Assembly (NCBI RefSeq): GCF_030464365.1
Contig: NZ_VCYI01000010.1
Location: 1 to 64,000 of the forward strand
Source: Methanoculleus methanifontis
Lineage (GTDB): Archaea > Halobacteriota > Methanomicrobia > Methanomicrobiales > Methanoculleaceae
Length of the DNA stretch: 64,000 nucleotides
Direction of reading: 5' to 3'
A program made the position numbers and the translations under genes. Of this stretch, positions 35,330-60,335 are shown piece by piece. Position 1 is the stretch's first letter. Each line of letters starts with the position of its first letter. The notes under the pieces were generated by a model. The model worked only from the letters and a program-made list of their open reading frames with translations, ran no database searches and was not told the origin of the DNA.

Positions 35330-35760
35330 TCTTCTTTTGTTTGTGCGCCGGGGGTTGACGCCGTGAGGCGTGGTCCTGGGGTGCACAGTGAAGGCCGGGC
35401 AGTGGTTTGAGGACAACTCCTCTATGGGAATAAACTGAAACCTGGTTTTCTTCGCCTCACCCGTACACTGGACCGTGGGAGTATCGCCACGGAGGGGGGT
35501 GGGGACAAAGGGGAGTGCGAGCGCAGCGAGCATGAGAAACTCGAAGAGTTTTGAGGGGGGAATACTCCCCCCTTCCCACCTGACGGTGTTCGAACTCCGT
35601 TCCTTCGCACCTTCGGTGCTCACGCTCCGGTTCTAACGAACCGTCGCGCTTCGGAACATCGCACTCCCCGTCAGCCCCTCGAAGAACTTCGTTCTTCTCG
35701 TGCTCCTGCCCTTCGGCCAGTCGCACTCCCCCAACGGCGATATCCCCACGAAAGCCGTGC
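35330..35760. repeat. Mosaic hairpin-array repeat, site 1
   Basis: A core bounded by TATCGCC (35482-35488) and GGCGATA (35736-35742) holds two back-to-back arrays of mini-hairpins around the G/C palindrome GAGGGGGGAATACTCCCCCC. Units include AAACTC-TTC-GAGTTT (minus strand), CACC-TTC-GGTG, GGTTC-TAAC-GAACC and AAGAAC-TTC-GTTCTT. They are joined by CTCRYGCTC or GTCGCACTCC linkers. The left flank carries CCGTACACTGGACCGTGGG, the inverse of the CACGGTCCACTG block. No gene is supported between 35325 and 35912. Confidence 0.75.
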
Positions 35761-40785: not shown

Positions 40786-41470
40786 TTATACGAGATGGGG
40801 AGGAGTGACTGCTCGCTCGCACCTAACGGTGCTCAAGCTCGCTTCGCTCGCACTCCCCCCCGGCGGCTTTTTATGTGTACCCTATCTTTTGCGCGAAGTA
40901 TTGGAGATTGTAACTTCGCTGAATCTGGTGTGGGTGGGGGCTATTGATAGAGCCTTACGCGATAGAGACAGGGGGGATGCTCCTGCCGTCCTGGCAGTCG
41001 CGCTCTGGAACATCGCACTCCCCGTCGGCCCCTCTCCCGATGGCGATACCCTCACAGCCCAGTGTACGGGGAGTACCTGGAGAAGAACCATGCACGGCTG
41101 CCCACCGGGTATCGCCATGACTGCCCCCGCCCCCTTGGGGGCGGGGGAGGAGGCCGAAGGCCGGGCGGGGTGGGGGTTACAGATATACCGAAGTGGTGGG
41201 TGATACCGGGAGAAACCATATGCGATAGAGACAGGGGAGGGGGGCGTGTCCCCCCTCCCCGTCAGCCCCACCCCAGTGGCGATACCCTCACGGTCCACTG
41301 CACCGGGGAGATACTGGAAATGTGATGTATGCGCCCCCAAGCATGTTTTCCCCATCGCCTATCGCCATGACTGCCCCCTTCCAGCGTGGCGGGGAGGACC
41401 GGGCGGATTTCTCCCCCTATAAGGCGGGGGCAAGCCCGGCAAGGGGTCATCTTCATTCATACAGCATGGA
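40786..41470. repeat. Mosaic hairpin-array repeat, site 2 (tandem elements)
   Basis: Three adjoining elements fill the gap between two convergent genes. The first ends at GGCGATA (41042-41048) and holds units such as GCACCTAACGGTGC. The second runs from TATCGCC (41110-41116) to GGCGATA (41278-41284). The third starts at TATCGCC (41360-41366) and has no clear right end. The outer spacers contain CAGTGTACGGGGAG and CACGGTCCACTGCACCGGGG. Internal modules include GATAGAGACAGGGGAGGGGGG and GGGGTGGGGGTTACAG. No gene is supported here. Confidence 0.72.
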
Positions 41471-57285: not shown

Positions 57286-57429
57286 GACCTCTTTTCCTCT
57301 CCTGTTATTTTGTCCTGTTATCAAAAAAGGTTGACCATGCTGCACGGAAGAGCCCGGGAGTAGCCGTTTCAACCGGCGCGATTCTCGCTTCCTCCGTAAT
57401 CAGGTACTTATAGATCGGTTCGGTGGGGT

Positions 57430-58520
57430 AAAAAAGATATGTTTGTCTCCGGTTCCGGCCCCCGGAGGGGAGGGGGCCTGGCCGACCGTGGTGCGCCTCC
57501 GCCGGTGCCGCCGGTGCCGCCGCCCCACGGGTGTTGCGGTGTTTGTGCGCGGGAACGTAATGTTATGGGAGTACTGTATCTGCTTATTCCCGCCTGTCCC
57601 CGTGCAGTGGACCGTGGTGGCCTGCGCACCGCGGGTGCTAGATCCTGAATCGAAATTTTTCGGTTTTCCTCAAGTTCCGGCCCTTCGGCCAGCCGCCAGT
57701 CCAAGACCTTCGGCCTTCTTCTGCTCCTGCCCCCGCACCTCGCACCTCCGGTGCTCGAACTCCGGCCTTCCGGCCCGCCGCATTCCCATGGAACGTCGTT
57801 CCTACCGGTGCTCCAGCTCCGTTCGCACCGATCGGTGCTCATGCTCCGGCCCCGAAAACGCTTCGCGTTTTCTCATGCTCCTGCCGTTCCGGCAGTCGCA
57901 CCCTTCAGCCCGTCGCATTCCGGAGGGACGTCGCACCCTTCGGCCAGTCGCATATCGCCACGCACTGCCCGCCCCCTTGGGACGGAACGACTTCCCCTTT
58001 GGGGAAGGAGTTTGAGCACCGTCAGGTGCGAGTGAGGAGCGCGAAGCGCGGGTGGTGGGGGTCACAGGTAGAGCCTTAGGGGGTAGAGACAGGGGAGGGG
58101 GGATGCTTCCCCCTCGAAACTCTTCGAGTTTCTCAAGCTCGCTTCGCTCGCACTTCCCACCTGACGGTGGTCGAGCTCCGGTTCTACGAACCATCGCACT
58201 CCCCGTCAGCCCCTCGCACCTAACGGTGCTCGTGCTCCTGCCCTTCAGCCAGTCGCACTCCCCCAAATGGCGATATCCCCACGGTCCACTTTGCGGGGAC
58301 CGCTTGGAAAAGTCGTATCTAATTTCGCTATGACCTATACTGAAGATTCGCAGACACGATTGGTGCAAATGCCGGGTAGAATTCAGCCACCCCGGGCGCA
58401 CAGACCCGCTTACCCCTCGCACCTAACGGTGTTCGAACTCTGCTCCTCAAAGACCTTCAGTTTTCTCAAACTCCGGCCCTTCAGCCCGTCGCATCCGAAA
58501 CACCCCCTCCACCTCGGCCC
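57430..58520. repeat. Mosaic hairpin-array repeat, site 3 (largest)
   Basis: AGTGGACCGTGG (57606-57617) and CCACGGTCCACT (58279-58290) form perfect 12-bp inverted ends of a 685-bp element. Inside is an array of variable mini-hairpins (57640-57950): GCACC-TCC-GGTGC, GGAAC-GTC-GTTCC, GCACCG-AT-CGGTGC, GAAAACGC-TTC-GCGTTTTC, GCCG-TTC-CGGC. Linkers are TCATGCTCC, CTCGAACTCC or AGTCGCAC. Then comes TATCGCC (57953-57959) to GGCGATA (58269-58275), containing GTAGAGACAGGGGAGGGGGG and more units. A further array tail runs to about 58500. No gene is supported between 57286 and 58446. Confidence 0.78.
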
Positions 58521-59106
58521 GGGGGAGGTCCTCCCCCCTGACCCGCATCCGCCAGCGGTGCGTCCGGACCGAGACCGCCGCGAGCGGCGCGAAGAGTTCC
58601 GCCGTCTCGGTCTCGGTGAAGTAGTGGGTGATGATCCCGTCGCCCCGCCGGAACGTCCACGGCTCCGTCTCCGTTCCCTTCCCGGCGCGCATATCTTCGA
58701 CGGAGAAACTCCGGAAGAAGAGCGTTCCGCCGGGCCTGAGCACCCGGACGGCTTCGGCGGCTACGGCCTTCCTGCCCAACTCCGGGAGGTGGCCGGTGAC
58801 GTGGACCAGGAAGACCGCGTCGAACGCTTCATCTCGAAACGGCAGGTGCCGGGCGTCGGCGACGGCAAGCCCGATCTCCGCCGTCGCCGGGCGGCGCCGG
58901 GCGAGGGCGACGGCCTCGGGAGAGATGTCGACCGCGGTCACATGCGGTGAACGCCTGGCGAGGGCTTGGAGGGTCTTGCCGTTTCCGCAGCCGACCTCAA
59001 GAACGGCTGCGCTTTCGGGGAGGTCCGGGAGCGGCGCCGGGGCTCCGCCCCAGAGGTTTCCTCGCCTCCGGTAGTCCTCGTCCCAGGCGCATGGATGGGC
59101 AGTCAC
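58447..59106 (-). CDS. SAM-dependent methyltransferase
   Basis: This 219-residue class I methyltransferase has motif I VLEVGCGNGKTLQALARR, followed by VTAVDISPEAVALARRR and VADARHLPFRDEAFDAVFLV. The target is unknown. The last 15 or so residues (FRMRRAEGPEFEKTEGL) are encoded by hairpin-array repeat DNA, so the natural stop codon may have been replaced when the repeat spread into the gene. Otherwise it has normal length. It is followed by the repeat array and preceded by a short spacer. Confidence 0.82.
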   Translation of the reverse strand: MTAHPCAWDEDYRRRGNLWGGAPAPLPDLPESAAVLEVGCGNGKTLQALARRSPHVTAVDISPEAVALARRRPATAEIGLAVADARHLPFRDEAFDAVFLVHVTGHLPELGRKAVAAEAVRVLRPGGTLFFRSFSVEDMRAGKGTETEPWTFRRGDGIITHYFTETETAELFAPLAAVSVRTHRWRMRVRGEDLPRAEVEGVFRMRRAEGPEFEKTEGL

Positions 59107-59281: not shown

Positions 59282-59719
59282 TTATTTTGATTTGCTCTCA
59301 ACCGGATGCTCAATTTTCACATCAGAAAGTTCGACATGAGCAATACGCGCAGGATAAAACCCTTCGATAAAGTCTCTCGCGTCCTGGTCGGTATCTTCAT
59401 CTAGTAGATATCCCCATGTTCCGTCTTCGTACTTAAAAATAACAGCCGTTTCATACTCATCCGTTTCTGGGTCATATGAGATAACTAGCCAGTTTGGATC
59501 ACTGTATGTCGGATCGCTGTCGATAATATCACCTGGTTGATACTTTGGCGTGCTTGATGATGCTGATGCATTCGAAGACGATTGTTGCGGGGCTGCAGTG
59601 GTATGCGACGCCGTCGGCTGGGCTGTTGCAGAGGTATCGACAATATCTCCGCTTTGAGTACATCCACTGATCAACAGAAACCCTACTAGCAACGCTAGCA
59701 TTACGACAATCTTTCTCAT
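59282..59719 (-). CDS. Putative lipoprotein
   Basis: This 145-residue protein has a signal sequence ending in a lipobox-like LLISGC (Cys20), then a Ser/Thr/Ala-rich linker, and a C-terminal domain beginning PKYQPGDIIDSDPTYSD. This resembles PKYTAGEILRNADASD in the lipoprotein at 20662-21459, suggesting a shared extracellular domain. The C-terminal part includes YETAVIFKYEDGTWGYLLDE, beta-like. It is AT-richer than its neighbours. Confidence 0.65.
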   Translation of the reverse strand: MRKIVVMLALLVGFLLISGCTQSGDIVDTSATAQPTASHTTAAPQQSSSNASASSSTPKYQPGDIIDSDPTYSDPNWLVISYDPETDEYETAVIFKYEDGTWGYLLDEDTDQDARDFIEGFYPARIAHVELSDVKIEHPVESKSK

Positions 59720-59889: not shown

Positions 59890-60335
59890 CTCCTGCTCAG
59901 GATGCTTCATACATCGCATATCGCTATGGGGGAGGAGGCCGGGTGGAGTGGGGGTTACAGATGTCCGCGTACAAGGTAGAGACAGGGGAGGGGGGATGCT
60001 CCCCCCTCGAAACTCTTCGAGTTTCTCAAGCTCGCTTCGCTCGCACTTCCCACCTGACGGTGGTCAAGCTCTGGTTCTACGAACCGTCGCACTCCCCGTC
60101 AGCCCCACAGCGAAGACCTTCGGTCTTCTCGTTTTCGCTTTCGCTCACACAGCGAAACCCTTCGGGTTTCTCGAACTCCTGTCTCGCACCTTCGGTGCTC
60201 ACGTTCCAGTTCTAGCGAACTGTCGCGTCCTGCGGACAGTCGTTCCCCCAATGGCGATATGCGACTGGCAGAAGGGCAGGAGCACGAGCACCAAAGGTGC
60301 GCAGGCCACCAGGTCCACGGTATGGTGACATGCCC
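59890..60335. repeat. Mosaic hairpin-array repeat, site 4
   Basis: TATCGCT (59919-59925) to GGCGATA (60253-60259) encloses GGGGGTTACAG, GTAGAGACAGGGGAGGGGGG, AAACTCTTCGAGTTT, GCTTCGCTCGCAC, CCACCTGACGGTGG, GGTTCTACGAACC and GAAGACCTTCGGTCTTC type units. The right flank (60260-60330) is, on the other strand, GGCCTGCGCACC followed by array ending CCAGTCGCATATCGCC, matching the left part of site 3. The remaining 59720-59890 and 60336-60497 hold no gene I can support. Confidence 0.72.

Follow-up and report, generated by a model that had tools for sequence, protein, structure and literature searches.

The window, a 64,000-nucleotide stretch of the Methanoculleus methanifontis genome, contains intergenic arrays of small hairpins at 35.4, 40.8, 57.5, and 59.9 kb whose stems differ in sequence. 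These arrays raise the question of which unit is repeated, what is kept from copy to copy, and how the copies accumulate. The arrays are real: compact hairpins (stem of at least 5 bp, loop of 2-5) outnumber those in dinucleotide shuffles in the regions at 35.4 kb (5 versus 1.3), 57.4-58.5 kb (16 versus 4.4), and 59.9 kb (9 versus 1.6), with a weak excess at 40.8 kb (4 versus 2.3). Genome-wide, a plain hairpin count is uninformative because GC-rich coding DNA is full of chance hairpins, and a linker grammar is required. The pattern of a hairpin followed by TCRNNYTY has 108 matches in 456 kb sampled from the window's own genome versus 15 in reversed sequence, and 247 matches in the loci of relatives versus 17 in the control. 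Modeled as single-stranded DNA, the minus strand folds better than shuffles in three stretches: 57640-57960 (z -3.0), 58090-58300 (z -4.4), and 59975-60310 (z -5.4).

What repeats is a module of two hairpins, A and B, with a length of about 45 bp, or roughly 46 bases. On its folding strand, which is the complement of the window's plus strand, the module reads H1(4 bp)-GA-[B hairpin]-GA-H1'-GA-[A hairpin]-GAR. The first-pass annotation had described single hairpins joined by near-constant linkers, and both parts of that description give way: the unit that inserts is a double hairpin of 45-49 bp, and the linkers covary as a helix. They are half-stems that pair around hairpin B and leave GA/GA mismatches on one strand. 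Extraction of all strings consisting of A hairpin, linker, B hairpin, and linker yields 87 distinct modules. In these, the inner four linker bases on each side of B form Watson-Crick pairs in 253 of 332 cells, compared with a mean of 200 (sd 7, maximum 224) in 2000 shuffles.

An alignment of H1 and B across 34 modules has 91% of its cells paired, changes on both sides in 9 of 10 pairs, and a covariation score of 0.633 versus 0.262 for shuffled (sd 0.024) and at most 0.109 for slid alignments; the choice of these modules allowed no more than one mismatch in the pairing of B, which favors the B part, while H1 is unselected. Six-bp cores anchored on CGA..GAGYNYGA, which carry no pairing preselection, are self-complementary at 5 or more of 6 positions in 81 of 146 cases versus 0 of 16 in reversed sequence. 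Anchoring on the six GA letters alone gives 85 distinct self-complementary cores versus 0 reversed. Some seemingly unpaired units (GCTTCGCTCGCAC and similar) fit the pattern GC-GA-xC[GNA]Gy-GA-GC; here GA/GA mismatches are part of a very short hairpin, the x:y pair can be G-C, C-G, or A-T, and all four GNA loops are present. The stems thus covary strongly rather than pairing no better than shuffled sequence, which supports the earlier proposal that the fold is kept while the stem sequence is free.

This covariation of paired bases also counts against decayed protein-coding repeats, a reading to which we assign almost no probability. Long open frames do cross the arrays, but the codon-score gene finder rejects them, and Pfam gives no match for three open reading frames overlapping the arrays. 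In addition, the lengths of the insertions described below (38, 45, 46, 48, 49, 78, and 94 bp) are not consistently multiples of three and do not keep the reading frame.

That one single strand folds is well supported by the loops, by both sets of folding parameters, and by a lean toward G.T mismatches. The folding strand is the more stable one in 79 of 83 modules with DNA parameters and in 80 of 83 with RNA parameters. Its mismatches favor G.T over A.C (24 versus 10 and 21 versus 13 among distinct sequences), a modest difference once copies are collapsed. Counted per distinct hairpin on this strand, triloops are GNA in 37 of 57 cases and tetraloops are GNNA in 21 of 28. A GNRA preference is expected of RNA tetraloops, and just 5 of those 21 are GNRA. 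With their G-C closing pairs, the module loops instead follow the rule for extraordinarily stable DNA mini-hairpins, which have "a GNA or GNNA loop (N = A, G, C or T)" (PMC4686876); d(cGNNAg) is likewise a selected stable DNA tetraloop (Nakano 2002, as cited in PMC9969394). The acting folded molecule is therefore more plausibly DNA than RNA.

The competing possibility is that the modules are transcribed structured RNA, either a multi-hairpin noncoding RNA or an mRNA-end element, with the fold selected at the RNA level. Strong covariation, the preference of RNA parameters for the same strand, the G.T excess, and the occurrence of GA/GA mismatches and GNA loops in RNA as well are all compatible with this account. 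It is nonetheless improbable, since the tetraloops are mostly GNYA rather than GNRA, insertion occurs into both strands, and module orientation relative to flanking genes is mixed (20, 17, 14, and 10). Because modules lie in both orientations relative to neighboring genes, a cis-acting RNA scaffold, one of the candidates raised at first, is unlikely. In Rfam, the sole match above the gathering score over the whole window is a tRNA outside the arrays, and a relaxed threshold gives no credible match within them.

A covariance model (CM) built from 24 modules finds 82 matches at E <0.1 in 456 kb of the own genome, corresponding to about 70 modules and, by extrapolation, to roughly 400 modules per genome. 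With genes from a codon-score caller, coding sequence makes up 77% of the DNA, yet 63 of 64 strong matches are intergenic (p 5e-39). The only one that overlaps a gene is the diverged module at 58432..58496, which covers the 3' end of a methyltransferase gene; the insertion may have supplied the present C-terminus of this protein. Across the order Methanomicrobiales, the CM finds modules in 56 of 232 genomes, where per-genome counts are lower bounds from the best 26 candidates scored in each. Matches are strong in most genomes of Methanoculleus, the genus of the window, weak in a set of its small or fragmented genomes, and sporadic in other families of the order. In a phylum sample of 394 genomes, no genome outside the order passes 1e-4. 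One genome from another family of the order (G098, locus L223) is fragmented and has a strong module match, which may reflect horizontal spread or assembly contamination. The modules and composite elements of the window are collected in Table 1.

Table 1. Modules, composite elements, and an overlapped gene in the window (CM, covariance model).
Feature	Positions	Strand	Basis and details
Composite palindromic element carrying two modules	35482..35742		Sequence; TATCGCCA ... CGGCGATA ends
Host hairpin GTTCC..GGAAC with module 35607-35649 in its loop	35599..35657	-	CM match 35604-35651, E 8.9e-15
Module, 3-bp CTC duplication	35678..35728	-	48-bp filled/empty event (module 35681-35725); CM match 35688-35728
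Module with short B hairpin (GA/GA type)	40816..40855	-	CM match, E 9e-10
Composite without clear module	41110..41284		Sequence; TATCGCCA ... TGGCGATA
Module in long array	57739..57785	-	CM match, E 9e-12
Module, 8-bp A stem GAAAACGC/GCGTTTTC, B stem CTGCCG/CGGCAG	57854..57903	-	Grammar match; CM match 57862-57903
Composite within the 57.5 kb array	57953..58275		Sequence; TATCGCCA ... TGGCGATA; outer arms 57587-57617/58279-58309
Module, orientation opposite to neighbors	57983..58032	+	CM match, E 6e-12
Module CCACC[TGAC]GGTGG + GGTTC[TAC]GAACC	58154..58201	-	CM match, E 4.5e-16
Module GCACC[TAAC]GGTGC + CTGCCCTTCAGCCAG	58213..58260	-	CM match, E 3.2e-16; identical copy in L091
Diverged module overlapping 3' end of methyltransferase gene	58432..58496	-	CM match, E 7e-7
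Methyltransferase gene	58447-59106	-	Pfam
Composite element of the 59.9 kb array	59919..60259		Sequence
Module	60047..60094	-	CM match, E 2.4e-15
Module nested in loop of CTGTC..GGACAG hairpin	60183..60230	-	CM match, E 7e-11
Module directly after TGGCGATA	60257..60303	+	CM match, E 6.6e-13

Comparison of orthologous sites shows modules present in some genomes and absent from others. The gap between the HypC and methyltransferase genes (identified by Pfam) spans 57300-58547 in the window, whereas the orthologous gap is empty at about 260-280 bp in several relatives and filled at 600-1270 bp in others. A scan of orthologous stretches for filled and empty sites with 12-base anchors returns many coding artefacts, and only events that contain a module were kept. 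These comprise eight clean module-sized insertions (45-49 bp), all flanked by a duplication of 3 bp or more that is mostly CTC or TTC (GAG/GAA). Further events measure 38, 78, and 94 bp, with two modules in the 78-bp event. Modules therefore display both short direct repeats at insertion flanks and presence/absence polymorphism, and these filled and empty sites lend weight to the mobile element listed among the candidates of the first-pass annotation. In the window, the module at 35678..35728 is missing at the orthologous site of G056 (L177) and has one near-copy elsewhere in its own genome.

Several insertions lie inside the loops of other hairpins, and arrays are thus built by nested insertion. 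In L115, the arrangement is GGGCG-TTC-[module]-TTC-CGCCC, and another loop insertion distinguishes G057 from G048. The nesting at 60183..60230 is also a filled/empty event, with G056 filled over G057. At 35.4 kb, the module in the loop of the host hairpin is flanked by a TTC duplication (35604-35606 and 35650-35652), and the empty form of this hairpin, GTTCCTGTCGGAAC, is found in L008, another copy of the same composite in the own genome. The L115 module is also missing in the more distant relative G053, which favors insertion over deletion. Every linker holds CTC/GAG, however, so slippage deletion between such repeats would give the same footprint as insertion, and insertion polarity rests on module-less outgroups in some cases only.

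Some copies have evidently multiplied by other routes. Identical tandem modules with periods of 45-46 bp occur in G051 (C4:45439 and C7:9831), in G052 (C1:1429836), and in the own genome (L212, G000:C5:54195). Locus L117 of G052 holds 7 identical tandem copies with a longer period. Such identical tandem runs look like recent slippage expansion. An identical module also occurs at unrelated loci in G052 and G057 together with about 60 bp of common flank, which indicates that it moved or was converted within a larger piece. The tandem runs and this shared flank together imply that slippage and the copying or conversion of larger pieces act too. In the sampled 456 kb, nearest identity is below 0.85 for 17 of 36 modules. 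About half of the modules thus have no close copy, and these are either old and drifting under structural constraint, or their stems have been rewritten arm from arm. Template switching, which the first-pass annotation had proposed, may be a source of new stems.

These processes could in principle account for everything: the arrays would expand passively, through replication slippage, template switches within hairpins, and conversion of one copy by another, with no dedicated mobility enzyme involved. The exact tandem arrays, the CTC/GAG repeats at all boundaries, the copying of composites as larger pieces, and the failure to find a Y1 transposase or reverse transcriptase all fit such passive expansion. 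Yet insertions of the same size occur at unrelated sites, including hairpin loops, where orthologous sites are empty, and modules have spread through most of the genus and into some other families. Passive expansion is accordingly a possible but doubtful explanation.

The Y1 transposase family (PF01797) is absent in the own genome (G000) and in most module-rich genomes, with no match in the other module-rich complete genomes tested; it is found chiefly in genomes with few or no modules (G055, G064, G067, G075, and G078), with G062 as the exception in which both occur together. The reverse transcriptase family RVT_1 (PF00078) is absent in G000 and present in 3 of 35 genomes. Y1/RAYT and reverse transcriptase were thus rejected as movers for want of either family in the own genome. 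Although most genomes have TnpB, it was rejected as well: the module-rich G051, G052, G073, and G077 lack it, and its numbers are highest in G078, which has no modules. G078, which belongs to the same genus, has 19 Y1 transposase and 55 TnpB matches, the reverse of module-rich genomes.

These absences bear on a REP/BIME-like system moved by a RAYT or an IS200/IS605-type Y1 transposase. Modules resemble REP/BIME elements in being clustered intergenic palindromes whose structure is read on one strand, and the folding strand asymmetry and a short guide-like tetranucleotide beside each hairpin add to the likeness. REPs, however, keep their stem sequence, whereas modules are double, do not conserve stem sequence, and reside in a genome without a Y1 transposase. 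With no Y1 or reverse transcriptase family in the own genome, this is not a standard REP/RAYT system; that form of the reading is largely refuted, and a system of this general type is highly improbable.

The best explanation of the arrays, and one of fair probability, is that a small mobile module of two hairpins has inserted again and again. As the filled and empty sites show, a module inserts at YTC (GAR on the folding strand) with a short duplication, and because an older module often receives it in a loop or linker, the arrays become nested and tandem. The covariation shows that the fold is kept, by selection or by the mobility process itself, including helices H1, A, and B, the GNA/GNNA loops, and the GA/GA mismatches, whereas the stem letters are not. 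In the most likely mechanism, an enzyme of the host or the element would recognize a single DNA strand in its folded state, probably at times when lagging-strand synthesis or repair leaves DNA exposed. The folded strand would then be copied into other single-stranded DNA, preferably the exposed loops of older hairpins, while stem letters drift or one arm is rewritten by copying from the other. The fold, target, and polarity in this scheme come from the evidence, while we infer the enzyme and the single-stranded DNA stage. A bolder version is a replicating shape, a mobile DNA element of a cellular genome recognized by an undescribed type of enzyme only through its single-strand fold of sheared-G.A mini-hairpins, with free stems and copies that insert into each other's loops so that arrays grow recursively; this version is speculative and rather unlikely to hold in full. 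If modules do behave in this way, the GNA/GNNA loop rule would be one of the few cases in which nature uses the DNA mini-hairpins that chemists have described, and it would point directly to single-stranded DNA as the recognized form.

Integron attC sites are folded single strands that vary in sequence while conserving structure, and they serve as an analogy only, the module being far shorter. Closer counterparts occur in mitochondria. One group of mitochondrial elements reportedly consists of two adjacent hairpins per element, is intergenic, and has had mobility inferred, and by this description the modules are alike in all these respects. These are the double-hairpin elements (DHE) of Allomyces mitochondrial DNA (Paquin, Laforest and Lang 2000, as cited in PMC5910586). 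Modules differ in residing in an archaeal chromosome, in the covarying H1 helix that joins their linkers, in the GNA/GNNA loop rule, and in occurring in hundreds of copies nested in each other. The GC clusters of yeast mitochondria, such as GC42, are palindromic, mostly intergenic, and flanked by AG or ACT direct repeats (2-3 nt); they merge and shuffle, and their mobility enzyme is unknown (PMC4478555). Modules share the size (about 42-46 nt), the palindromes, the short flanking repeats, and the intergenic location, but GC42 keeps its sequence across copies whereas modules keep the fold with free stems, in a different type of genome. Repetitive hairpin-forming elements of sponge mitochondria likewise form sporadic intergenic hairpin arrays that include double and triple hairpins, although in the portion of the source consulted they are defined by repeated sequence, with no covariation or loop rule described (PMC2800124).

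The modules therefore match the mitochondrial elements in being tens of bp long with one or two hairpins, and may be regarded as their kin by behavior, not by descent; the covarying H1 helix and the loop rule have no counterpart in the mitochondrial accounts consulted. The initial statement that no such repeat family is described stands for Rfam and the searched cellular literature, including open-access literature on Methanoculleus, where no report of these elements was found, but not for mitochondrial double-hairpin elements and GC clusters, which behave very similarly. Hairpin elements that move without a known enzyme are a decades-long puzzle of fungal, algal, and sponge mitochondria. The same behavior in an archaeal chromosome, if true, would make the mechanism testable, since cultured species exist and comparisons can extend across most of a genus.

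By inspection, module ends have no terminal inverted repeats of the kind found in a MITE of a DDE transposase, while larger composites have TATCGCCA/TGGCGATA ends. The arrays at 35.4, 57.5, and 59.9 kb lie within such palindromic composites. The composite at 35482..35742 recurs at about 101 kb of contig C2 of the own genome (G000:C2, L005), and at C10 (L008) without the inner module. The site directly after TGGCGATA is occupied in other composites too (L012 and L007). Outer CAGTGGACCGTGG/CCACGGTCCACTG arms accompany the composites at 35482-35742, 41110-41284, 57953-58275, and 59919-60259. On the minus strand at 59282-59719, the window also contains a 145 aa open frame with a lipoprotein-like start and no Pfam match. 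Composites are found in both orientations at one orthologous site (L111 versus L117), and in L212 and L011 the module arrays are bordered by a separate repeat family (GCGAAGCCGCGAAGGGCGCGAAG with its complement).
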